DNA of 45,375 bases from a virus. Below the pieces are notes generated by a model, which did no database searches, was not told where the DNA came from, and saw only the letters and a program-made list of their open reading frames with translations. Where the stretch lies: positions 1-45,375 of IMG/VR virus record IMGVR_UViG_3300025127_000072. One strand, given 5' to 3'. The position numbers and the translations under genes are program-made. Positions 3,210 through 22,874 of the stretch are shown here, piece by piece (within the stretch, counting starts at the first letter, position 1; every line of letters starts with the position of its first letter).

Positions 3210-3252
3210 TACCCTGAGTGATACACACTCCCTATACTAAGAACAGTTAATT
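3210..3252 (+). promoter_or_regulatory. Repeated promoter-like element, copy 1
   Basis: TACCCT (3210-3215), 17 bases, then TATACTAAGAACAGTTAATT (3233-3252). The same two parts at the same spacing occur at 9476-9518, before the virion block. Between the boxes lies a dyad, GAGTG (3216-3220) and CACTC (3226-3230). It may be a second, phage-controlled promoter or an operator for the promoter at 3179. Confidence 0.6.
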
Positions 3253-4520: not shown

Positions 4521-5457
4521 ATTAATTCATGATTTAGAGAAAGAGCTAACTGATATACGTCAGGCTAATCTCAAGTTAAGTAAAGCTAATGAAATATTTA
4601 GACAAGAGAATATTGATCTACATGAACAAATAGAGGAAAACAAATCTGCAATAGATGAATGTGTTTTTCTAAGAAATGAAAACGAGGGGTTTCTTGAAGA
4701 GATTAAGGAACTCAAGAAAGAAAATGTTGAGCTTAAATCTAATATGGAATTAGGCAAAGATTGGGAATATGATAATGATGGAAACCATGTTGCATATTCT
4801 AAAGATGATCTGAATAGACAGATTACTAATCTAAGAATTAAGCAAAGAGAGTTAGAGAAAGAGAACGTCAAGCTTGTTGCCCAATTAGAAAATGATGAAC
4901 ACAACGTTGGGCATTTAGACGAAAAGATGAAGAGGTTAGACTATCTAGAAAAGGTATTTGCTTCTAATCGTTATGTGTTTAGCGAGATACCTAACACACC
5001 TGAGAATTTAAAGATGGTTAAGATGATGAAAAAGTATGTCAACAAAAGAAGATACAATCTACGTTGGCGAGGTCAATATCTTATCGAGGGAGAAAATTGG
5101 AAAAAGTATCAAGACGGACAACCACTATCGAAATCCAAATGTATTCGTGTCTACATAGATAGCTTAACTCATGCCATTGACACAGTTGAAGGATTTAACA
5201 TGAGTGAAGTCAAACTTATTATGGATAGCTTAGACAAACAGATTGACGCTAACGAAGATTTCATCAGGAGTTGGAGTGTCAATGGTGAAAAGAATGAAGA
5301 AGTCGAGCAAGAGAAACGTGAACTCAATATAGCCAAAGAATTGTTTAGTTATTTTGAATCTATGATGTTGCACCTTGAGAACTCTGCTTCAACACCTATC
5401 AAAGATCTTGTCAATGTGGTTATTCCAAAAGGAGACAAACCTTGTCACACCAAATAA
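4507..5457 (+). CDS. Coiled-coil protein, function unknown
   Basis: A 316-residue protein whose first 150 residues are a long coiled coil, with repeated Leu/Glu/Lys heptads such as LEKELTDIRQANLKL and IKELKKENVELKSN, broken near 85-100 by an acidic turn (DYDNDGNH-like). The rest is globular, with basic YVNKRRYNLRWRGQYL around 175-190 and a helical end. It starts inside the methyltransferase 3' end (14-base overlap), so the two are coupled. It could be an oligomeric partner or a structural scaffold in DNA metabolism; nothing in the sequence decides. No membrane segment. Confidence 0.85.
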   Translation: MKVSKLIHDLEKELTDIRQANLKLSKANEIFRQENIDLHEQIEENKSAIDECVFLRNENEGFLEEIKELKKENVELKSNMELGKDWEYDNDGNHVAYSKDDLNRQITNLRIKQRELEKENVKLVAQLENDEHNVGHLDEKMKRLDYLEKVFASNRYVFSEIPNTPENLKMVKMMKKYVNKRRYNLRWRGQYLIEGENWKKYQDGQPLSKSKCIRVYIDSLTHAIDTVEGFNMSEVKLIMDSLDKQIDANEDFIRSWSVNGEKNEEVEQEKRELNIAKELFSYFESMMLHLENSASTPIKDLVNVVIPKGDKPCHTK

Positions 5458-5639
5458 ATGACCAAATCTTCGACACTATAAATGACGAATGGACTGACAT
5501 GAGTGTCGAGGATTTGAAAGATTGGCTTGCCACTCATAGGGAAACCGATATGGTTGCAAAGGTAGTCCATGATAATCTAGATAGTTTAGAAAAGAAATGG
5601 AAACAAGAAAAGTTTGACAGTTATCCTGATAGGTGGTAA
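5442..5639 (+). CDS. Hypothetical acidic protein, 65 residues
   Basis: Begins inside the coiled-coil gene (16-base overlap) with MSHQINDQIFDTINDEW. It is acidic and helical, with Trp at several positions (DEWTDM, KDWLATH, KKWKQEK) and a short end YPDRW. No Cys, no membrane segment, no domain I recognise. Overlap with the previous gene supports a real, coupled gene. Confidence 0.7.
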   Translation: MSHQINDQIFDTINDEWTDMSVEDLKDWLATHRETDMVAKVVHDNLDSLEKKWKQEKFDSYPDRW

Positions 5640-5671
5640 CTACTATCTGAACAGACAGAAAAGGAGAAATC

Positions 5672-6253
5672 ATGTCTAACACAGATAGAATAAGAGCTTA
5701 CTACAATCTGCACAAAAAGTGCTTCTCTGTACAAGATTACCAAAGTGGATTGGTTATTGAACATACTGATGAGTTGTTCGTAACCAACGCCATGTTTGTT
5801 GTCAGGAAGTCAGGCAACGAAAGAGTAAAGCAAGAGGGCAAGAAGAATGTCCATGCTTTTGTCAATGGTATTCGTTCCAAACTCAAACGAGGTATGATGC
5901 CTGAATTTGCATCTCACAAAGTTCGTTATGATCCATACACAATGGATTACTTCCACTACGAAAGAATTGTTAATGGTAAACCTGAATGGTTGCCAGTTGA
6001 TAGGCATTGGATAGGTAATGTCTATTTGTACATGAATGATGGTAAGCCACGCATTTATGCAGACATTGACAAACTGGGTGACACTAAACTTTTGGACAAT
6101 GACAAACCAATCGACACTAAAGAAAAGCCACTAATGGTTATCAAAGATGATAGTTGTATTAAACGCTATTATGATGGTGGTAGATTTTCAATGGAATTTT
6201 TAAGAAGAAAGCAAAGGCAAATAAGAAATAAAAAGAAACTTCTTGCTATTTAA
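5672..6253 (+). CDS. Conserved-looking phage protein of unknown function, 193 residues
   Basis: Starts behind AAGGAG with good spacing. The first half has a pattern I associate with small phage proteins of unknown role: YNLHKKCFSVQDYQSGLVIE, then NAMFVVRKSGNERV and KKNVHAFVNGIRSKL. The second half has many aromatic residues (HYERIVNGKPEWLPVD) and ends very basic (RRKQRQIRNKKKLL), which could bind nucleic acid. No catalytic motif seen. It lies in the early operon between small unknowns and the DUF932 gene. Confidence 0.8.
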   Translation: MSNTDRIRAYYNLHKKCFSVQDYQSGLVIEHTDELFVTNAMFVVRKSGNERVKQEGKKNVHAFVNGIRSKLKRGMMPEFASHKVRYDPYTMDYFHYERIVNGKPEWLPVDRHWIGNVYLYMNDGKPRIYADIDKLGDTKLLDNDKPIDTKEKPLMVIKDDSCIKRYYDGGRFSMEFLRRKQRQIRNKKKLLAI

Positions 6254-6313
6254 TCTAGATAGTTTAGAAACAATTATATGTTCAATTTAAATAGATAAAG
6301 AAAGGAAACTTAA

Positions 6314-9025: not shown

Positions 9026-9047
9026 TACTTTTTAAATACCTCCATGA

Positions 9048-9080
9048 AAACGCCTTAGATTAGTTTCTAGGGCGTTTTTT
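9048..9080 (+). terminator. Intrinsic terminator at end of early block
   Basis: A 12-pair stem (9048-9059 with 9066-9077, one G-U) with a 6-base loop, followed by T's to 9080. It isolates the early operon from the virion block. Confidence 0.92.
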
Positions 9081-9475
9081 ATTTGTTAGCTTCAATATAT
9101 ATGTAAATGATTGTTTCTTTTATGTAATCGCTTTATTTGTAGTCTAGCGTATTGCTCGCAATATCCACCTTGAAAGATACCTTTTCATATTATTTGTATG
9201 ACTAACTTTTGACAAATCGGCAACGTGGGTGCGTGTGCGTGCATGATTACCTTTTATTATTGTGTTGGGTTTTGTGTTGGGTGGTGTTTCAGCCTTTGGA
9301 ACTATCAATGATCGTAGCAAAGTAGAAATCACATAAAAATATATAGTTTTCCGTGCGTACACGCAAGAGCCACCCCGGGCCCCCCAGTATTTGCATGCAA
9401 TGTAGCCATATTTTTACGTAAAATAGTTACTTGTACAAGTTATGGTGCATCCCTTTGGGATAGGCGTGCAAAGAA

Positions 9476-9518
9476 TACCCTGCATGGGTACGCTTCTCTA
9501 TACTAAGAACAGTTAATT
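9476..9518 (+). promoter_or_regulatory. Repeated promoter-like element, copy 2
   Basis: TACCCT (9476-9481), 17 bases, TATACTAAGAACAGTTAATT (9499-9518), matching copy 1 at 3210-3252 in both boxes and spacing. The dyad here is TACCC/GGGTA. The box TATACT is a good -10; TACCCT is not a sigma70 -35, so a phage activator or altered polymerase is likely. Confidence 0.6.
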
Positions 9519-9528
9519 TGGGGGGTAT

Positions 9529-9555
9529 GGTGTATTCCCGGAGGGTTACACTCCG
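9529..9555 (+). promoter_or_regulatory. Two alternative hairpins in the late leader
   Basis: GGTGTA (9529-9534) can pair with TACACT (9547-9552), stacking on CCC/GGG inside. CGGAG (9539-9543) can instead pair with CTCCG (9551-9555). The two exclude each other. Both would be in an RNA started at the element upstream. Confidence 0.35.
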
Positions 9556-9601
9556 ATTGTACCGACCAATTCCTATTCTGTCAACAAAATAATTATTTTT
9601 C

Positions 9602-9630
9602 TTGACGTGGTTATGCTAAGTTACTATTAT
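9602..9630 (+). promoter_or_regulatory. Sigma70-like promoter of the virion block
   Basis: TTGACG (9602-9607), exact 17-base spacing, TATTAT (9625-9630), with an A/T-rich tract upstream that could be an UP element. It points into the virion genes starting at 9741. Confidence 0.65.
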
Positions 9631-9740
9631 TAAAGTAACAAAAGATCAACTAAAGCACATGCAACCAAGTATTATCTGAAGAATTAGTGTATTTGGCTTT
9701 ATTTCTTTGATTTTTTGTCAATTTAACAAGAAAGAACTCC

Positions 9741-9962
9741 ATGTATGAAGCGTTTGTACTGATTTGTCTAATGGGTCATCCTACATTAGACGAAAGTTGT
9801 GAACAATTAAAGGATACACGAGGTCCTTATATGACCCATGACCAGTGTTTAGCACGAGTATACGAAATAAAACAAGATTTACCCTTGTACAAACCCCACA
9901 TGGAAGCAAGAGCATACCGTTGTGACAAATTTACTCCCCAAACAGAGAAGCAAAGAACGTGA
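9741..9962 (+). CDS. Small Cys-containing protein, possibly exported
   Basis: A 73-residue protein whose start MYEAFVLICLMGHP is a short hydrophobic stretch like a weak signal or anchor. Four Cys (9, 20, 36, 61) could form two disulfides outside the cytoplasm. A central piece, TRGPYMTHDQCLARVYEI, matches a pattern I know from small marine phage proteins with no known role. It is the first gene of the virion block and overlaps the small terminase by 41 bases. Confidence 0.65.
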   Translation: MYEAFVLICLMGHPTLDESCEQLKDTRGPYMTHDQCLARVYEIKQDLPLYKPHMEARAYRCDKFTPQTEKQRT

Positions 9963-10329
9963 AATAAGTCCTCAACAGGAACAATTTCTAGAAGTACTCT
10001 TTGAAAATGGTGGCAATGTAACTGATGCAGCCCTTAAAGCAGGATATGCAAAGGGATCAGTGACGTGGTTACGCAATAGTTTAGCAGATGAGATCATAAG
10101 ACGCACACAAAACGTGCTATCTATGAACGCATTTAAGGCTGCTACACGCCTTGTAACGACAATAGACAACCCAGTGCCTGAAAGAGGAGACGATCTACGC
10201 TTTAGGGCTGCAGAATCGCTTTTAAACAGGGTCGGATTGGGTAAACAAGAAACAACCAACGTAAATGTACAAGCTGTGCATGGCATTGTACTACTTCCAC
10301 CCAAGAAAGGGGTAACTATTGATGGCTAA
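9922..10329 (+). CDS. Terminase small subunit (putative)
   Basis: A 135-residue protein with a helix-turn-helix at 18-55: QQEQFLEVLFENGGNVTDAAL and AGYAKGSVTWLRNSLADEI, the layout of small terminases that recognise the packaging site. The end (QAVHGIVLLPPKKG) resembles the strand and tail that bind the large subunit. The frame has no ATG near its start, so GTG at 9922 is taken; this overlaps the previous gene by 41 bases. Place, two genes before the large terminase, supports the call. A plain DNA-binding protein is the alternative. Confidence 0.8.
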   Translation: MTNLLPKQRSKEREISPQQEQFLEVLFENGGNVTDAALKAGYAKGSVTWLRNSLADEIIRRTQNVLSMNAFKAATRLVTTIDNPVPERGDDLRFRAAESLLNRVGLGKQETTNVNVQAVHGIVLLPPKKGVTIDG

Positions 10330-10687
10330 ATCACTTGAAGAAAAGGAAAGAGATAAGCGAATACAAAAACAAGTTGAAAAGCTTGGAGGTCCTAAGAAAC
10401 CACCAAAGCCTAAAACTTTGAAACAAGCTGCTACTGAACAGTACAAAAGAGCGAGAATAATTCAAAAATCTCCTTTCACTAGCACAAGCAAAAAATCAAT
10501 GCTTACAGACGCAGGATTTAAACCTGCTAGTTATGATGAAGCAAAGACAGCGTTTTATAGAGGTACTACAGGACTTTACAAACAGAATGTTCCAAAAAAA
10601 TTGAGAGATAGATTAAAGTACGAAGGTGGTAAAAAGGGAAAGACTTATACTCCGGGATCAGGTTCACGTAAACCAGATATGGGTTAA
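10322..10687 (+). CDS. Basic hypothetical protein between the terminase genes
   Basis: Very Lys/Arg-rich, 121 residues, starting MAKSLEEKERDKRIQK with AAAGGGG upstream of the ATG. The first part is charged and helical, with PPKPKTLKQAATEQYKRAR. The second part is probably mostly loops, ending TYTPGSGSRKPDMG. Charge suggests DNA binding. Its stop overlaps the large terminase start (TAATG). It may help packaging, but that is inferred from place only. Confidence 0.75.
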   Translation: MAKSLEEKERDKRIQKQVEKLGGPKKPPKPKTLKQAATEQYKRARIIQKSPFTSTSKKSMLTDAGFKPASYDEAKTAFYRGTTGLYKQNVPKKLRDRLKYEGGKKGKTYTPGSGSRKPDMG

Positions 10688-12375
10688 TGTCTGAATCTAC
10701 TCCGAAGCGAGGTCGACCAAAGAAAGACCCCAACGCTCCCAAACAAAGATACAACTATTCCTCTGCAGTCAAAGCTCGTAAGCAAACACAACGTAGACTT
10801 ACTGAAGCAAAGAAACGAGCAGCAAAGGTAACAAAGCAAGCAGAAAGTAAAAGACGCTATGCCAGAAAACTCGAAGAAAAAATCACAAAAGTCGACAAAG
10901 CACTCAATCAAGACACGACTGCTGTTATCGATAAAACGGATCTGCAAGAGTTGCCAGATGTTGTTGAGCAACTGGTGGATGGGCGTGAAATTATTTTTCA
11001 GCCAAACGAAGGTCCTCAAGAAGAGTTTCTTTCCTCAAGTGAAAGAGATGTTCTGTACGGTGGCTCAGCAGGTGGGGGAAAAAGCTTTGCACTTCTCGCA
11101 GACCCTCTTCGGTATTGCCACAATAGCAATCATCGTGGGCTTCTTCTTAGGCGTACTCTGGATGAGCTAACAGAACTAATAGACAAGTCACGTCAACTAT
11201 ATCCCAAAGCTTTCCCCGGTGCAAAGTTCCGGGAGTCAAAGTCAACGTGGCATTTTCCGTCAGGTGCAACAATTTGGTTTACGTATCTTGACAAAGACAA
11301 AGACGTAACACGATTTCAGGGTCAGTCGTTTAACTGGATAGGCATTGATGAGATAACCCAATATCCCTCGCCTTACGTTTGGGATTATCTCCGTTCACGA
11401 CTAAGAGCAACTGATCCTGAACTGCAAAGTCATCTGTACATGCGTTGTACAGCGAACCCCGGAGGAGTCGGTGGTTGGTGGGTTAAAAAGATGTACATCG
11501 ATCCATCTGAACACAATTCGACTTTTCCTGCAGTAGACATCGAAACAGGCAAACCTTTCTTGTGGCCCAAAGGTCACGAAAAGGAAGGCGAACCACTCTT
11601 CTATCGCAGGTTCATCCCTGCACGTTTGACCGACAATCCATACTTGTTGGCTGATGGACAATACGAAGCGATGTTAAGATCACTACCTGAAGTCGAGCGT
11701 AAGCGACTTCTTGAAGGTGACTGGGAAGTGACAGAGGGTGCAGCTTTCCCTGAATTTAGTAGGAGTAAACATGTTACACCGAGTTTCGAGCTTCCACCGA
11801 ATTTCCCCAGAATACGTGCCGCTGACTATGGGTATGCGAGTCCTTCTTGTGTCCTGTGGGGTGCTATTGACTGGGATAACAATATATGGGTTTATCGTGA
11901 ACTGTACGTAAAACAGTTGACAGCAGAGCAGTTGGCAGATAGAATACTACAAGTAGAACAAGAAGATCCGACACCACACTATACAGTGCTTGACTCATCG
12001 TGTTGGAACAAGACAGGGTTCGGCCCATCAATAGCAGAGACGATGATGAGATGTGGCGTACGTTGGATGCCATCAGACAGAAACAGACTGCAAGGTAAAA
12101 TGGAAATACATCGTAGGCTTGCAGATGATCCACGAACAGACGAACCTAGATTACGAATATTTCCGAATTGTGTCAACCTTATCAAACAACTTTCAGGTAT
12201 ACCTCTTAGCAAAACAAATGCAGAGGATGTGGACACAAAGGCAGAAGATCACGCATATGATGCACTGCGATATATGTTAATGACAAGGATGACAGGATAT
12301 GTATCGATTCATAAAACGCTTGGTGGCATCAAGAATCAGGTCTATCAAATGCAAGACCAAACATTTGGATATTAA
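10687..12375 (+). CDS. terL: Terminase large subunit
   Basis: The 562-residue packaging motor: an ATPase that pumps DNA into the procapsid and a nuclease that cuts it. Walker A is GGSAGGGKS (125-133). Walker B is FNWIGIDEIT (D221, E222). The nuclease domain shows three acidic sites, in RAADYGYAS (D380), YTVLDSSCW (D436) and AEDHAYDALRY (D521/D525), the usual RNase H-like triad. Unlike most relatives it has about 100 extra N-terminal residues. These are very basic and begin with KRGRPKK, an AT-hook-like DNA-minor-groove motif, followed by a charged helix. Assignment is firm. Confidence 0.97.
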   Translation: MSESTPKRGRPKKDPNAPKQRYNYSSAVKARKQTQRRLTEAKKRAAKVTKQAESKRRYARKLEEKITKVDKALNQDTTAVIDKTDLQELPDVVEQLVDGREIIFQPNEGPQEEFLSSSERDVLYGGSAGGGKSFALLADPLRYCHNSNHRGLLLRRTLDELTELIDKSRQLYPKAFPGAKFRESKSTWHFPSGATIWFTYLDKDKDVTRFQGQSFNWIGIDEITQYPSPYVWDYLRSRLRATDPELQSHLYMRCTANPGGVGGWWVKKMYIDPSEHNSTFPAVDIETGKPFLWPKGHEKEGEPLFYRRFIPARLTDNPYLLADGQYEAMLRSLPEVERKRLLEGDWEVTEGAAFPEFSRSKHVTPSFELPPNFPRIRAADYGYASPSCVLWGAIDWDNNIWVYRELYVKQLTAEQLADRILQVEQEDPTPHYTVLDSSCWNKTGFGPSIAETMMRCGVRWMPSDRNRLQGKMEIHRRLADDPRTDEPRLRIFPNCVNLIKQLSGIPLSKTNAEDVDTKAEDHAYDALRYMLMTRMTGYVSIHKTLGGIKNQVYQMQDQTFGY

Positions 12376-12378
12376 TAA

Positions 12379-14265
12379 ATGGCTCAAGTAACAGGAGGTG
12401 GTGGTAAGGCTGCTGTAATGCCTAACTTCGACCCAAAGCAAACTACATTAGAGGAAACAATTAACGAGTATGCAAAAGCATCTCGTGCTACAGGCAAAAA
12501 GCTTGAGGATTTTGAAAAAAGGCTTATTAACAATAAAGTCCTTAAAACCTATTTAAAAAATCCAGTTGTTGAATTGTTTGATGGTCATTGGGGAAATGAA
12601 GATAACCCCCTTGTCAAATTACTTGATTCTGTTGGTGAAGGAAGTAGAGGACAGTTTTACAGTGCTTTCAAAAGTATAGAAGAAAACGTATTCAGGCAAG
12701 TTAACAGATTAAGATTTAACGAGGACTACAAAAAATTAACAGAGGGAGTTGCTCGACCTGCAAAGGGGGGTAAATATACATCAAAATTTCTTTACAATCC
12801 TGAAAAAATTGGTGACTTTCATAAAGGATTAGTAGAGTTTGTAAAAAACAATCCTGATTCAAAACCTGTAGCAAATGCTTTGCTATTTCAACTCTATACA
12901 GGTTTTAGACCAAATGCTGCAGGAGGTATAACTCCGTTTGATATATACGAACCTGAATCAAGACATAATATACACAGTCTATTTATAGGTGGTAACAGGG
13001 TCGGTGCAAAAGGCTCTCCTATAAATGTTCCTTTGACAAGAAGAGCTATGGCAATTCTTAACAGTCAAAAGTTATATAATGAAAATAAATTTGATGGTGA
13101 AAAATTTATATTTCAAAAAAAGGTAAAAGGTAAACTTGAACCTATTGATGATACAGATATTACAGGTTTGCTTAAAAAATTAAAAAAAGCAAATCTCTTA
13201 CCTCCTAGACTTAAAGTAGATGTATCAGGGGATGTGGTCAAAGGAACAACAAATATTACTGCCTACGATTTACGAAGAATACACGCTACCACATTATCAA
13301 GTTTAGGTGTAAGTTTAGAAAAGGCTGCTCTTCTAACAGGCAGAGTGGTTGGTGGTGGTGCAGAGCAAGCAAGATACGTTGGTCTTGCTCCGGGGTCTGC
13401 TAATCCTCAAGGGGCTGCTAAAGACGCTAACATGTTAACGGACTATATGTATCAAGAGTATAGTAGAACTCTTCCGGGGGGTATGCAAGCTGCAGAAAAA
13501 GAAAGTAAATTTTTAGCTCGTGATAGAGATGTATTTAGTCCAAATCAACCTGTAGAATTTGTAAAGCCTAGCACAGATGTTTATAAAGGTCCTACTTACG
13601 AAAAGGGTGTCAATGTTATATCTACGGTTGATACTGATTTTATAGAGGGTGATTACAAAGTACTTGATGATAAACCACCTGCTAGTATTGCTGAAACAAG
13701 CAAAGAAACTCAAGACTGGTTTAGAAGTATGAACATAGATGATGGCAGTCTTGCACCTCAGATTGAAGATAAGACAATAAAAACTAAGAAACTAAAATCT
13801 GTAGATCCAACTGCAATATTATTAGGAGGTGCAGCAGGGTCAGAGATATTAGATGATACTGGCGAGCTAGTTACTGAAGAAATTGCACAATCGACTATAG
13901 CTCAAACAACGTCAAAGATTGCACCAAAGTTAGCACAGACTGCACTCGGAAGAGCATTACCAGTAGCAGGTGCAGGAATGATTTTTCCAACTTCTCCTAC
14001 AAACGTAGGTGAGATAGAGGGATTTGCAAGAAAAGATATTGATAAACGTTTTGGTGGCATAGATCAAATGGATACATCTCAGGAAAAACAAATATTTAAA
14101 GATGATCCACGACTACAAGGAACAACAGCGATGTACGATCCATCAGAGTTACCAAGACGAGACGCTGATGACCCACTAAGTGATGAAGCGTACAGAAAAA
14201 GATTTCTAGAGGAATCTAGAACAAAAGCAGGCTCACAATTACGTGGGTTCGCACAACCTCGTTAA
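12379..14265 (+). CDS. Tyrosine-recombinase-like protein with long C-terminal extension
   Basis: A 628-residue protein whose middle (about 130-345) follows the tyrosine recombinase/integrase fold. LYTGFRPNA holds R177 (the first Arg); GAKGSPINVPLTRRA holds K211 in the beta-hairpin; TAYDLRRIHATTL holds R299 (the second Arg), with Tyr296 in place of the usual His; LLTGR followed by EQARY gives a possible nucleophile Y333. After this, some 280 residues have no match I know, with two mild hydrophobic runs (AILLGGAAG; ALPVAGAGMIF). It lies between terminase and portal, an unusual place for an integrase. It may be an active recombinase, an inactive relative recruited to the virion, or a DNA-binding head protein. 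Codon use looks like that of its neighbours. Confidence 0.7.
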   Translation: MAQVTGGGGKAAVMPNFDPKQTTLEETINEYAKASRATGKKLEDFEKRLINNKVLKTYLKNPVVELFDGHWGNEDNPLVKLLDSVGEGSRGQFYSAFKSIEENVFRQVNRLRFNEDYKKLTEGVARPAKGGKYTSKFLYNPEKIGDFHKGLVEFVKNNPDSKPVANALLFQLYTGFRPNAAGGITPFDIYEPESRHNIHSLFIGGNRVGAKGSPINVPLTRRAMAILNSQKLYNENKFDGEKFIFQKKVKGKLEPIDDTDITGLLKKLKKANLLPPRLKVDVSGDVVKGTTNITAYDLRRIHATTLSSLGVSLEKAALLTGRVVGGGAEQARYVGLAPGSANPQGAAKDANMLTDYMYQEYSRTLPGGMQAAEKESKFLARDRDVFSPNQPVEFVKPSTDVYKGPTYEKGVNVISTVDTDFIEGDYKVLDDKPPASIAETSKETQDWFRSMNIDDGSLAPQIEDKTIKTKKLKSVDPTAILLGGAAGSEILDDTGELVTEEIAQSTIAQTTSKIAPKLAQTALGRALPVAGAGMIFPTSPTNVGEIEGFARKDIDKRFGGIDQMDTSQEKQIFKDDPRLQGTTAMYDPSELPRRDADDPLSDEAYRKRFLEESRTKAGSQLRGFAQPR

Positions 14266-14277
14266 AAGGAGATAATA

Positions 14278-14496
14278 ATGGCAGACAATCTTAATCAAGG
14301 TGCAGCCTATATAATGGGATCAGATAAAGTATCAGTTGATGATGCTCAAGGTTCTACTAATCTATATAGAGAAGGTCTTGAGTTTACAACTGAAGTAAAT
14401 CAAGATGCGTTGCAAGTTGACATGCCAAAGAAGCAAACAAAACCAACTGTTGAAGCTTCTTTATTTAAAATGGCTGACGATAGAAACTATTTCTAA
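14278..14496 (+). CDS. Hypothetical protein, 72 residues
   Basis: Starts behind AAAAGGAG. Acidic and polar, with no Cys or membrane segment: MADNLNQGAAYIMGSDKV, then SLFKMADDRNYF at the end. It lies directly before the portal gene and may be a head protein or head assembly helper. Function unknown. Confidence 0.7.
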   Translation: MADNLNQGAAYIMGSDKVSVDDAQGSTNLYREGLEFTTEVNQDALQVDMPKKQTKPTVEASLFKMADDRNYF

Positions 14497-14509: not shown

Positions 14510-16633
14510 ATGGCTGATGAAAGTTTTCTTCAACCTGACGATGATACACCTGTACCTATCCAAAATCCTGATGACTCTATGCCCGGATTGGCAGGCTACG
14601 TCAAAGCCAAGTTTGAAGATGCAGAGAATGGCAGACGTTCGCACGAACTAAAGTGGTTGCAATCTTATAAAAACTTCAAAGGTATATATGACTCAACGAC
14701 TCAATATCGTGATTCAGAAAGATCTAAAGTATTTATAAAGATAACCAAAACTAAAGTTCTTGCTGCATACGGACAAATAGTTGACATACTTTTTAGTAAC
14801 AAAAAGTTTCCACTGGTAGTAGAACCAACTCCAATGCCTGAAGGTATTGAGGAGTTTGCTCACAAAACAACTCCTCTTGACGAAGCTGAAGAGAAACCTG
14901 ATCCATATGGATTTGAAGGTGATGGAAGAGAACTACCCCCCGGAGCTTTGGCAACTCGTGAACCTCACAAACTAGGAACTTACGGAGAAGAGTTTCCAGA
15001 TATGTTAAGTGCAGGCCCTGCAAAATTAGGAGAGCCACAACTTAAACCTGCACAAAAGATGGCTATGAACATGGAGAAGTGTATTCACGATCAACTAACT
15101 GACAGTAATGCAGTTAACGTTTTTCGTAAAGCTATATTTGAATCAGCATTGCTTGGAACAGGCATAGTCAAAGGCCCATTAAACTTTTATAAACGTGTCC
15201 ACAACTGGGAGATAGATCCTGAAACTGGAGAGAAAGTTTACAGTCCTTACGAAAAAACAATGCCACGTATTGAGTACGTATCGTTGTGGGATTTTCATCC
15301 TGATCCATCTGCAACAAGCATAGAAGATTGTGAGTATGTCATACAACGACATCGTATGAACAGACAACAGCTTCGTGGTCTAATCAAACGACCATACTTT
15401 GATGCGTCAGCTATCGAAGAGTGTCTTTCAAAAGGCCCTAACTACGAGGACAAATACTACGAAGATACCATCCGTGAAGATGATACCGAGCCTTACTATC
15501 AAGAAAACAGATACGAAGTTCTTGAATATTGGGGAGTCATAGACAAAAAGTATGCAGGTGAAGTCGGCATGGAAAATGCCAACGAGATGTCAGAGTTTGA
15601 CCAACTACAAGTTAACGTTTGGGTATGTGGTGGTATGGTCATTAGGTGTGTTGCTAATCCATTTACACCTGCACGATTACCGTTTCAAGCATTTCCATTT
15701 GAAATAGACCCATATCAAATATGGGGTGTTGGTGTTGCAGAGAACATGGAATACTCACAAAAGTTGATGAACGGACACTACCGTATGGCTATCGACAACT
15801 TGGCACTTGCAGGTAATCTTGTATTTGATGTAGACGAAGCAAGCTTAGTTCCCGGACAAAACATGGATATATTCCCCGGTAAAATATTTAGACGACAGTC
15901 TGGTGTAACTGGCACGGCAATTAACGGACTAAAGTTTCCGAACACTGCACCAGAGAATATACAAATGTATCAAATATCACGACAACTTGCCGATGAAGAT
16001 ACAGGTATACCATCCATACTACACGGACAAACAGGTGTGACTGGCACTGGTAGAACTGCTGCAGGACTATCTATGTTGATGGGTTCGGCAGGACTGGCTA
16101 TGAAAACAGTCATAAAGAATATAGATGATCATCTACTCAAACCACTGGGCGAATCTTTGTTTCAGTGGAATATGCAGTTTAATGATGACTTAGGGGAGAT
16201 CAAAGGGGATCTAGAAATAAAACCTCGTGGGGTTGCAGCAGTCATGCAAAAAGAAGTACGCACACAAAGACTGACTGCATTGCTTCAAACCGTATCTAAC
16301 CCTATGCTTGCACCTTTTATAAAGATACCTAACTTGATAAGAGAGCTTGCAATCGCACAAGATATTGATCCTGACACGTTAGTCAACGATGCAAACGAAG
16401 CACAACTGTACGCTGAAATGTTAAAAGGAATGATGGCTAATGTACAACAAGGAGCAGGCGAAAATGCTGTCGCCACTAATCAACAGCAAGGAATGGAACA
16501 ACCTAGTGGAGTATCTCAACAACCTGAAGGAACTGACAGTCAAGGGTCTGGTAACGGCACAATCGGAGTCGGAGCTACGCCAACTGCAGGGGAGACTGGC
16601 TTTACTGGAAATGCTCCTAGAGTTGAAGAATAA
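14510..16633 (+). CDS. Portal protein
   Basis: A 707-residue head-tail connector that forms the ring through which DNA passes. The layout fits a podovirus portal: a helical start with NGRRSHELKWLQSYKNFKGI, then TKTKVLAAYGQIVDILF, a middle insertion rich in Pro/Glu (about 100-190), and the wing and stem region with WDFHPDPSATSIEDCEYVIQ and MNRQQLRGL. The last 65 residues are low-complexity Gln/Gly/Ser/Thr, unlike a folded end. That tail lies over a second gene read in another frame (16440-16661), which explains its odd make-up. The stop is 21 bases before the polyQ protein start. Confidence 0.93.
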   Translation: MADESFLQPDDDTPVPIQNPDDSMPGLAGYVKAKFEDAENGRRSHELKWLQSYKNFKGIYDSTTQYRDSERSKVFIKITKTKVLAAYGQIVDILFSNKKFPLVVEPTPMPEGIEEFAHKTTPLDEAEEKPDPYGFEGDGRELPPGALATREPHKLGTYGEEFPDMLSAGPAKLGEPQLKPAQKMAMNMEKCIHDQLTDSNAVNVFRKAIFESALLGTGIVKGPLNFYKRVHNWEIDPETGEKVYSPYEKTMPRIEYVSLWDFHPDPSATSIEDCEYVIQRHRMNRQQLRGLIKRPYFDASAIEECLSKGPNYEDKYYEDTIREDDTEPYYQENRYEVLEYWGVIDKKYAGEVGMENANEMSEFDQLQVNVWVCGGMVIRCVANPFTPARLPFQAFPFEIDPYQIWGVGVAENMEYSQKLMNGHYRMAIDNLALAGNLVFDVDEASLVPGQNMDIFPGKIFRRQSGVTGTAINGLKFPNTAPENIQMYQISRQLADEDTGIPSILHGQTGVTGTGRTAAGLSMLMGSAGLAMKTVIKNIDDHLLKPLGESLFQWNMQFNDDLGEIKGDLEIKPRGVAAVMQKEVRTQRLTALLQTVSNPMLAPFIKIPNLIRELAIAQDIDPDTLVNDANEAQLYAEMLKGMMANVQQGAGENAVATNQQQGMEQPSGVSQQPEGTDSQGSGNGTIGVGATPTAGETGFTGNAPRVEE

Positions 16634-21559: not shown

Positions 21560-22189
21560 ATGTTATTACAAATACTAACCAAAGAAGATGTGGACAAGTG
21601 TTTAAAACTTTGTCCAAAAATGGAAGATGGCAATAAGACACAGCCATTAGAAAGTGTCAAGAAGAATACAGAGTCAGTAAAAGTTGCAGATGAGATAAGA
21701 AATCTTGTAGCTTCACGAATTGTAAATAATCCATTTGTTGACTCAGTAATATGTCCTAACCGTGTATCAGTAAACTTTTACAATAACTACACAGAGGGTG
21801 ATTATTACAACAAGCACATAGATAGTTTTAAGGCAGAACCTAAAATGAATCATGTGTATTTTGATTACGGTTTTACAGTCTGTTTATCAGACGACTACGA
21901 AGGTGGAGAGTTTGTACTTGACAATGAAATAGGTGAAATACCTTTTAAGTTAAAAGCAGGTCAAGTTTTATTCTTTCCAATTATATATCCCCACAGTGTT
22001 AACAAAGTAACAAAGGGATCACGAAAAGCATTGATAGGTTGGTTATCTACCAATGTTAGTTACGAACAAAGTTTTGTGTTGCGTAACTTGTATGAAGTAA
22101 ACGCTCATGCAATAAACAACAAACAACACAATCTAGCTGTTAAGTCTACACTTGTACAAAACTATTTAAAGAAACAGTGGGGTAGATAA
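21560..22189 (+). CDS. 2-oxoglutarate/Fe(II)-dependent oxygenase (prolyl-hydroxylase-like)
   Basis: A 209-residue enzyme of the P4H/PiuC type. The iron site is complete: H86 and D88 in NKHIDSF, H145 in IIYPHSV, and R155 in GSRKALIGW for 2-oxoglutarate. Between them lies YGFTVCLSDDYEGGEFVLDN, the usual core strands. It would hydroxylate a protein or small molecule using oxygen and 2-oxoglutarate. It lies among virion genes, between the decoration protein and a conserved unknown, so a virion protein could be the target, or the enzyme may act on host metabolism. Enzyme class is firm; substrate unknown. Confidence 0.9.
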   Translation: MLLQILTKEDVDKCLKLCPKMEDGNKTQPLESVKKNTESVKVADEIRNLVASRIVNNPFVDSVICPNRVSVNFYNNYTEGDYYNKHIDSFKAEPKMNHVYFDYGFTVCLSDDYEGGEFVLDNEIGEIPFKLKAGQVLFFPIIYPHSVNKVTKGSRKALIGWLSTNVSYEQSFVLRNLYEVNAHAINNKQHNLAVKSTLVQNYLKKQWGR

Positions 22190-22190
22190 A

Positions 22191-22874
22191 ATGGCATACT
22201 TGATAAGTAACATACCACACTTTAAGTGTTGGGTACGAAAAGAGTTCACACACAATCACCAAATGTATCATGGTGAATATTTACACGGACTAGCAATAGC
22301 CGTAAACACAGTGCCAGACAGATGTCTAAGTTTTCAAGTTGTATTTACAGGATGTGAAAGTGATGACGATGAAAACGAACCGAACGTACACGGTGGTGCA
22401 ATGTGGGCAAGGATGCCAATAACAGCACTCGTTGCTGATATACCGTACGAAGAGTGGCCGCAGATAATGCCAACGCATTTAGCTCAGCCGTGGGATTGTA
22501 GCTCACATCATCACTCAATAGTGCGACTAGATAGAGTTAGTTCATCTCCGTGGATTTGCAAGATAGACGGAGAGTTTCATAAAGGACAATATCTATTTAC
22601 TGTAGATTATACAGAGAGTGATATAGCAGATGACCCTGCACAACACAAACAAAGTCACGTATTGCAGTTGATAGACGCAGGAGATTGGACAGGCAACATC
22701 GTTGCTTTGCCAAACAACAGAGTAAGGGCAACAAGTCCTGCACTTTGGGAAACTGGTGAAGGTCCTCCAGATTTTAGACCGAGCCAGTACATACACAATG
22801 CAGAGATTCACGAAACTTATCTTGATCCTGCAATAACATTTGATAACTTATATTCGGAGAATGACAATGGCTGA
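22191..22874 (+). CDS. Conserved marine phage protein, function unknown
   Basis: A 227-residue protein starting one base after the oxygenase stop. It has many His, Trp and Asp residues in conserved-looking blocks: GGAMWARMPITALVADIPYE, LAQPWDCSSHHHSIVRLD, DDPAQHKQSHVLQLIDAGDW and NIVALPNNRVRATSPALWE. I have seen this pattern near coat genes in marine phages, always without a known role. Many His and Asp hint at metal binding, and it may work with the oxygenase next to it. The end overlaps the next gene by 8 bases. Confidence 0.8.
   Translation: MAYLISNIPHFKCWVRKEFTHNHQMYHGEYLHGLAIAVNTVPDRCLSFQVVFTGCESDDDENEPNVHGGAMWARMPITALVADIPYEEWPQIMPTHLAQPWDCSSHHHSIVRLDRVSSSPWICKIDGEFHKGQYLFTVDYTESDIADDPAQHKQSHVLQLIDAGDWTGNIVALPNNRVRATSPALWETGEGPPDFRPSQYIHNAEIHETYLDPAITFDNLYSENDNG

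Follow-up and report, generated by a model that had tools for sequence, protein, structure and literature searches.

The TerL–portal locus and its source virus

The stretch of DNA analysed here (the window, 45,375 bases) is a linear virus fragment held as an IMG/VR record. The window is a piece of an HMO-2011/HTVC103P-type podovirus; its portal protein is about 51% identical to that of pelagiphage HTVC033P and about 47% identical to that of HMO-2011. The left side encodes a primase and a DnaB helicase on the minus strand and is followed by a long plus-strand head-and-tail block; the genome is probably incomplete, given that complete relatives span 53–56 kb. HMO-2011-type phages are an abundant marine group that includes temperate members, among them CRP-3, which integrates; the main survey of these phages placed all reported integrases upstream of the replication module and, in most subgroups, found no genes for lysogeny (PMC9038755). 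The integrase of HMO-2011 itself (gp09, 5377–6255) is a canonical protein of about 300 residues encoded beside the primase.

Within the head block a single ORF, open throughout the reading frame of its 628 codons, occupies a position hereafter called the slot (Table 1). The initial annotation had placed a tyrosine-recombinase-like protein between terminase and portal, and this placement holds, with TerL ending at 12375 and the portal starting at 14510. The intergenic gaps are 3 bp on the TerL side and 12 bp before the small ORF that precedes the portal, and the order TerL, slot ORF, ~72-aa ORF and portal recurs in those relatives (IMG/VR contigs) in which both flanks are visible.

Table 1. Features of the interval from TerL to portal (window positions)
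Feature	Position	Strand	Evidence
TerL (terminase large subunit), left slot flank	10687..12375	+	PHROG_979 3.6e-63; 98% aa identity to L003
Tyrosine-recombinase-like slot protein, 628 aa	12379..14265	+	PF00589 above cut-off, PHROG_1, AF2 fold
N-terminal helical domain, residues ~22–125	12442..12753	+	VIA-align rows, model residues 22–345
Catalytic domain, residues ~135–345	12781..13413	+	PF00589 match, VIA-align
Arg177 (Arg I), invariant	12907..12909	+	21-row alignment
Lys211 (beta-hairpin Lys), invariant in group A	13009..13011	+	alignment
Tyr296 replacing box II His	13264..13266	+	alignment; Y/A/S/P/Q/K/E in relatives
Arg299 (Arg II), invariant	13273..13275	+	21-row alignment
Arg322 replacing His/Trp III, invariant in groups A and B	13342..13344	+	alignment
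Tyr333, putative nucleophile, invariant	13375..13377	+	21-row alignment
Mosaic, low-confidence, exchangeable tail, residues ~430–628, end ...RGFAQPR	13666..14262	+	tail comparisons, AF2
72-aa ORF between slot gene and portal	14278..14496	+	in nearly all slot-bearing loci
Portal, right slot flank	14510..16633	+	SU10_portal 2.3e-27; 96% aa identity to L003

Several neighbouring features deserve separate mention. A second variable slot is formed by the ORF between TerS and TerL (10319–10687), which in the close relatives L003 and L013 is occupied by unrelated small, basic or disordered proteins; many of its occupants elsewhere have GGKV/GGRV-like ends. ORFs of 75–108 aa with a 'TIPFGY...' motif adjoin TerL in other loci (L053:5700-5927, L096:321-548, L054:4995-5261, L086:7302-7628 and L094:990-1235); they resemble the recombinase domain found in large serine recombinases, and are possibly DNA-binding packaging factors. 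Sinorhizobium phage phiM6 (L011:5222-6829) has a protein annotated as an SGNH/GDSL hydrolase at the equivalent pre-portal place. Just 3' of the capsid genes of the window, two ORFs (21560–22189 and 22191–22874) match PHROG families annotated as 2OG-Fe(II) oxygenase/endonuclease and 'ferredoxin'.

Identification of the slot protein as a tyrosine recombinase

Residues 151–317 of the slot protein match PF00589 (Phage_integrase) with 29.1 bits (E 1e-6), the curated cut-off being 27.1 bits, and the protein matches PHROG_1 'integrase' at 8.8e-15. The NCBIfam search returned no match, and comparison of the single protein with PDB sequences gave chance matches only. In an AF2 model built with 21 homologues the core is of moderate confidence, with many blocks at 65–90, and residues 455–588 fall below a pLDDT of 50, indicating that the long tail remarked upon in the initial annotation is real. 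Over residues 22–345 the best-ranked structures in Foldseek searches and VIA-align were those of lambda Int (Z 13.3; 261 residues, rmsd 6.3), Tn1549 Int (Z 13.0), XerA, XerH and Cre, with a Foldseek E of 4e-5, so that a mismatch with tyrosine recombinases, which had been considered beforehand, was not seen. Because the matches span this whole region, both a core-binding-like helical domain and a catalytic domain are predicted, and VIA-align does pair residues ~22–125 with the lambda Int and Tn1549 Int core-binding domain.

The pattern of conservation points the same way. A 21-row alignment of groups A and B (see below), whose members outside the close clade of the window share 13–24% identity with its protein, contains only six invariant columns, namely G175, R177, F245, R299, R322 and Y333. 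That six invariant columns in a core of 430 residues should include R177, R299 and Y333, three of the four residues picked out at first, has a chance probability of ~6e-6. These three, together with K211, had been proposed as the catalytic set and are indeed the expected residues: the possible loss of the Arg and Tyr positions in relatives did not materialize, all three being kept in 21/21 sequences, and K211 is kept by 14/14 rows of group A, to which the window protein belongs. MAFFT left its column unaligned for group B, where lysines lie nearby.

A His (or Lys/Tyr) at box II and a third His/Trp are the usual, although not universal, residues of tyrosine recombinases. Neither the usual His nor the usual His/Trp is found in the window protein, in which Tyr296 stands at box II, as had been noticed of the position before R299, and the third position, typically part of 'LGH', is Arg322 in 'LTGR'. 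With the box II and III residues treated as secondary, membership of the superfamily rests on the fold and the Arg/Arg/Tyr set. Active TelA and ResT carry Tyr at the box II position (PMC3558466), and Tyr296 is therefore no evidence of a dead enzyme. The Arg at position III is unusual, and the replacement of both residues means that activity in groups A and B may be altered. Taken together, the agreement of profile, predicted fold and active-site conservation supports the assignment of the ORF to the tyrosine recombinase superfamily, and the protein quite probably still cuts and rejoins DNA.

Diversity and distribution of slot proteins

L002–L007, close relatives, came from a first scan, and L015–L019 from a second. 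A portal-anchored scan yielded 80 loci, which usually have one large ORF between TerL and the ~72-aa pre-portal ORF. By BLAST and HMM comparison the slot proteins split into groups A (that of the window), B, C, D, E and F, plus others; the few slot ORFs outside these families are non-recombinase or without family. PF00589 and PHROG_1 integrase are each matched by 18 of the 46 slot proteins, and in whole-record searches the PF00589 matches lie in the long slot ORFs, HMO-2011 having its separate integrase by the primase.

The families differ in how much of the canonical active site is recognizable. Group F retains the full set, including 'SHTFRRAFAT' and 'MGHE'. Most members of group C have both Arg residues and the 'GH', and L037 of this group shows no clear candidate for the Tyr at the expected position, so that an inactive slot member may exist. 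Group E has no Pfam match in the record search. As in groups A and B, its invariant columns are in essence active-site positions, and it keeps independently the equivalents of the two Arg and the Tyr; these columns are R199, F272, R311, H334 and Y350, plus M1, E370, three Gly and one Ala. Whole-protein Foldseek with its AF2 model gave no significant match, and VIA re-alignment of the weak Foldseek list placed tyrosine recombinases first (Z 8.5); the fold assignment of this group hence rests also on the conserved residues.

The slot-bearing viruses are uncultured, mostly marine, and infect bacteria; in most of them the slot is occupied by a tyrosine recombinase. A tblastn search of 50,697 phage records with the slot protein found no isolate relative, the portal matching 37, and the gene is absent from the examined isolates of the wider phage group. 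Two peptide patterns, of limited sensitivity, retrieved no relative from 84,980 prokaryote genomes, and a portal search of prokaryote genome contigs gave 19 loci, in none of which a slot recombinase was recognized.

Exchange of the slot gene between closely related viruses

The recombinase core has a dN/dS of ~0.04–0.11 within clades (overall range 0.04–0.23; ~0.2 between the window and L003 and L015), indicating that it is under purifying selection. The window and L003 share 98% amino acid identity in TerL and 96% in the portal, and 69% in the recombinase core; their synonymous divergence is 1.21 in the recombinase and 0.38 in the portal, about a threefold difference, which argues that the slot gene has been exchanged and is not merely fast-evolving. 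Nucleotide identity between the window and L013 is 98% at the TerL stop, ~65–79% in the core, ~35–45% in the tail and 92% in the pre-portal region.

Mapped on a tree of 89 portals (a quick search with an arbitrary root), the slot families require 24 changes, and family E is scattered like random labels. Different families are found in sister phages whose portal end branches measure 0.02–0.04 and whose pairing has starred support (L041 B/L039 E, L037 C/L042 E and L096 B/L053 E). These comparisons indicate that the slot gene is an exchangeable cassette, with unrelated recombinases present in phages whose portals are nearly identical.

A natural empty site was found in one metagenome contig (L066:1290-1560), where TerL is joined directly to the small ORF and the slot gene is absent. 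Its flanks are 98% and 95% identical at the nucleotide level to those of L067, which carries a group F recombinase of 1,007 aa; slot-bearing L110 likewise matches these flanks at 95–98%. The slot gene is thus accessory, at least there. Self-insertion of the gene was considered and rejected, as the L066 junction has neither a target duplication nor an att-like repeat.

A mosaic tail and a shared C-terminal peptide

The tail of about 200 residues follows a history of its own. L003, L013 and L014 have cores that are 95–98% identical and tails that are unrelated or mosaic. Across families, tails are held in common by L036 (B) and L074 (E) (59% over 226 aa), by P0001 and L043 (35% over 124 residues), and by L017 and L030 (34% over 149 residues). 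These alignments show the tail to be mosaic and to be shuffled independently of the core.

Many tails carry a short motif near their end, GF[ILV], which lies within the last 40 residues of 16 of 39 non-redundant slot proteins, far more often than by chance, copies that are not all independent because tails are partly homologous across groups; composition-preserving shuffles predict 0.86 (maximum 5 in 2,000). Elsewhere in the same proteins it occurs at 0.02 per 40 residues. The 16 include 3/8 non-recombinase slot occupants; the motif is also found near the C-terminus of 5/29 post-portal proteins (0.42 expected), and is absent from the ends of 34 portals, 8 TerL and 11 MCP, as well as from gp302 ends. 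Several slot relatives are without it, and the window tail, ending GFAQPR, has the weaker form GFA. The sharing of tail modules and of the C-terminal peptide with non-recombinase occupants suggests a common role on the phage side.

Search for recombination sites

Neither a tRNA or tRNA-like attP near the slot gene nor an RNA-family match was found in the window, and no second PF00589 gene is present there; a search of the incomplete 45-kb fragment revealed no long near-perfect palindrome. The gaps of 3 bp and 12 bp beside the slot gene contain no recognizable co-inherited recombination site. A classical integrase with an attP was set aside for want of a tRNA or RNA-family match near the gene and, by two peptide patterns of limited sensitivity, of a relative in prokaryote genomes; a non-tRNA attP elsewhere is conceivable. 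A telomere resolvase, suggested by Tyr296, was likewise set aside, given the unconserved box II residue, Arg322 in place of His at position III, and the lack of a long near-perfect palindrome in the incomplete fragment.

Two non-coding elements were observed elsewhere in the window. An exact 21-bp direct repeat, CTATACTAAGAACAGTTAATT, is present in intergenic DNA at 3232–3252 and 9498–9518, 6.3 kb apart, and extends to 24 bp at 96% identity (3229/9495; chance expectation 0.01). A small ORF has one copy in its 5' leader, and one copy occurs also in L013; it looks leader- or promoter-like and is possibly a promoter/leader element or a candidate recombination site. A short GC-rich block, CCACCCCGGGCCCCCC, at 9370–9390 interrupts ~900 bp of AT-rich non-coding DNA (9026–9921) that lies upstream of TerS, and is possibly a pac/cos site or an origin.

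Comparison with known systems

Lambda Int, Tn1549 Int, XerA and Cre, all of PF00589, likewise have a two-domain core with Arg-Lys-Arg-Tyr at normal spacing. The slot protein departs from this superfamily in its Tyr for the box II His, its Arg for the third His/Trp, its mosaic tail, and the position of its gene inside the TerL–portal operon. HMO-2011 gp09 belongs to the same virus group and superfamily but is short and canonical, whereas the slot gene is at a different locus, in the head block, and encodes a long tail. The telomere resolvases TelA and ResT resemble the slot protein in having Tyr before Arg II, as Tyr296 is here (PMC3558466), but in the slot protein the third position is Arg and not His, and the box II Tyr is unconserved in relatives.

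VLF-1 of baculoviruses and bracoviruses is a virion component with a tyrosine recombinase fold, whose Tyr is needed for infectivity (PMC3649998). It stands low among the viral fold matches of the slot protein, and it belongs to eukaryotic viruses and is required for capsid formation, whereas the slot gene is absent in the natural variant L066; any likeness would lie in the way of working rather than in membership. Engineered T4 heads carry active Cre by means of a capsid-targeting peptide (PMC10229621). Internal proteins of T4 have a short terminal targeting peptide that is N-terminal and cleaved, while the peptide of the slot proteins is C-terminal and its targeting role putative. We found no clear precedent in the literature searched for a virion-packaged phage tyrosine recombinase, or for one encoded between terminase and portal. 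The superfamily itself is known, but that literature gave no prior description of portal-adjacent, tail-bearing recombinases with Arg for His/Trp that exchange at one locus.

Functional and evolutionary implications

The conserved active-site core, the exchangeable tail and the swapping of the gene between nearly identical viruses make a working accessory enzyme probable. The head-operon position, the mosaic tails, the shared peptide and the accessory status favour, in turn, a delivered effector or genome-processing enzyme over an essential part of packaging. The idea, raised in the initial annotation, of a recombinase carried in the head is compatible with this position, the modular tail and the C-terminal peptide. 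We judge it evenly balanced whether the enzyme travels in the virion as a passenger that its tail docks there; the full reading, which is our best explanation, a catalytically competent, late, accessory and exchangeable recombinase that is docked by its tail as virion cargo and ejected with the DNA, comes out just short of even. Under this reading the gene would be expressed late along with the head genes, and the disordered tail, with a GF-type end peptide in many relatives, would dock the enzyme at the procapsid or portal region, from which it would be ejected together with the phage DNA. Residues ~22–345 would bind DNA and cut and rejoin it with Arg177-Lys211-Arg299-Tyr333, Arg322 replacing His/Trp. 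In the next cell the enzyme might act on a specific site of the incoming phage genome, in circularisation or multimer resolution, this being favoured over host or competitor DNA as the substrate.

For a late accessory gene packaging of the product is no necessity, and the recombinase could instead remain unpackaged and resolve or circularise the replicating DNA of the phage in the producing cell before packaging, with the tail as a tether to the packaging machinery. Its tight coupling to TerL and portal and its conserved active site would suit this role, and the binding partners of the tails could include terminase or portal besides the capsid. Yet the gene is missing from L066 and from the examined wider-group isolates, so that packaging in general needs none, and no co-inherited site was found beside it; we consider this explanation unlikely. 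A resolvase for packaging ends had been suggested for this gene; an essential role of that kind is not supported, as L066 is an empty site and wider-group isolates manage packaging in the absence of a slot gene, and the incomplete window yielded no long near-perfect palindrome. That the protein is an ordinary phage integrase, relocated to the head operon and integrating at a host attB, would agree with its Pfam and PHROG label and with the temperate habit of some HMO-2011-type phages, CRP-3 among them (PMC9038755). This becomes quite unlikely given that the known integrase of the group is upstream of the replication module (HMO-2011 5377–6255), that the window has neither a tRNA or tRNA-like attP found near the gene nor a second PF00589 gene, that the patterns of limited sensitivity found no relative in the 84,980 prokaryote genomes, and that the long mosaic tail sets the protein apart from integrases.

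The polymorphism for presence and absence, the rampant replacement, and the existence of another variable ORF slot between TerS and TerL might alternatively reflect a selfish or homing-like gene at a permissive operon site, replaced or lost by recombination and of no service to the phage. We regard this as improbable, since tail modules and the C-terminal peptide are shared with non-recombinase occupants and the empty-site junction has no target duplication or att-like repeat. A catalytically dead fold, reused as a structural protein or as a DNA-binding regulator in the manner of MrpR/YopR/SroF of SPbeta-like phages, could account for the replacement of 2 of the 6 canonical active-site positions and for the appearance of SroF, MrpR and YopR among the fold matches. 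This possibility, the structural form of which had also been put forward at first, is disfavoured and seems very improbable: the Arg/Arg/Tyr positions are the most conserved columns of a family otherwise ~15% identical, the active-site columns are among the best conserved in a second, separate family, the core is under purifying selection, group F slot proteins retain the full canonical set, and Tyr occupies box II in active TelA and ResT (PMC3558466).

More tentatively, the virion-passenger reading may be extended to the locus as a whole, as a portal-side 'cargo slot' whose products, diverse and mutually almost unrelated tyrosine recombinases along with other proteins, would enter the head by way of an exchangeable tail with a short C-terminal GF-type peptide and be ejected with the DNA in active form; if true, this would be a natural counterpart of the engineered Cre-loaded T4 heads. 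The empty-site and swapped-cassette pairs make the function of the slot directly testable. If virion-borne, the slot recombinases would constitute a natural system that delivers a site-specific recombinase into a cell along with DNA. A second, unrecognized and fast-exchanging population of recombinases with conserved active sites in the head operon of these viruses would also mislead 'integrase'-based calls of phage lifestyle.
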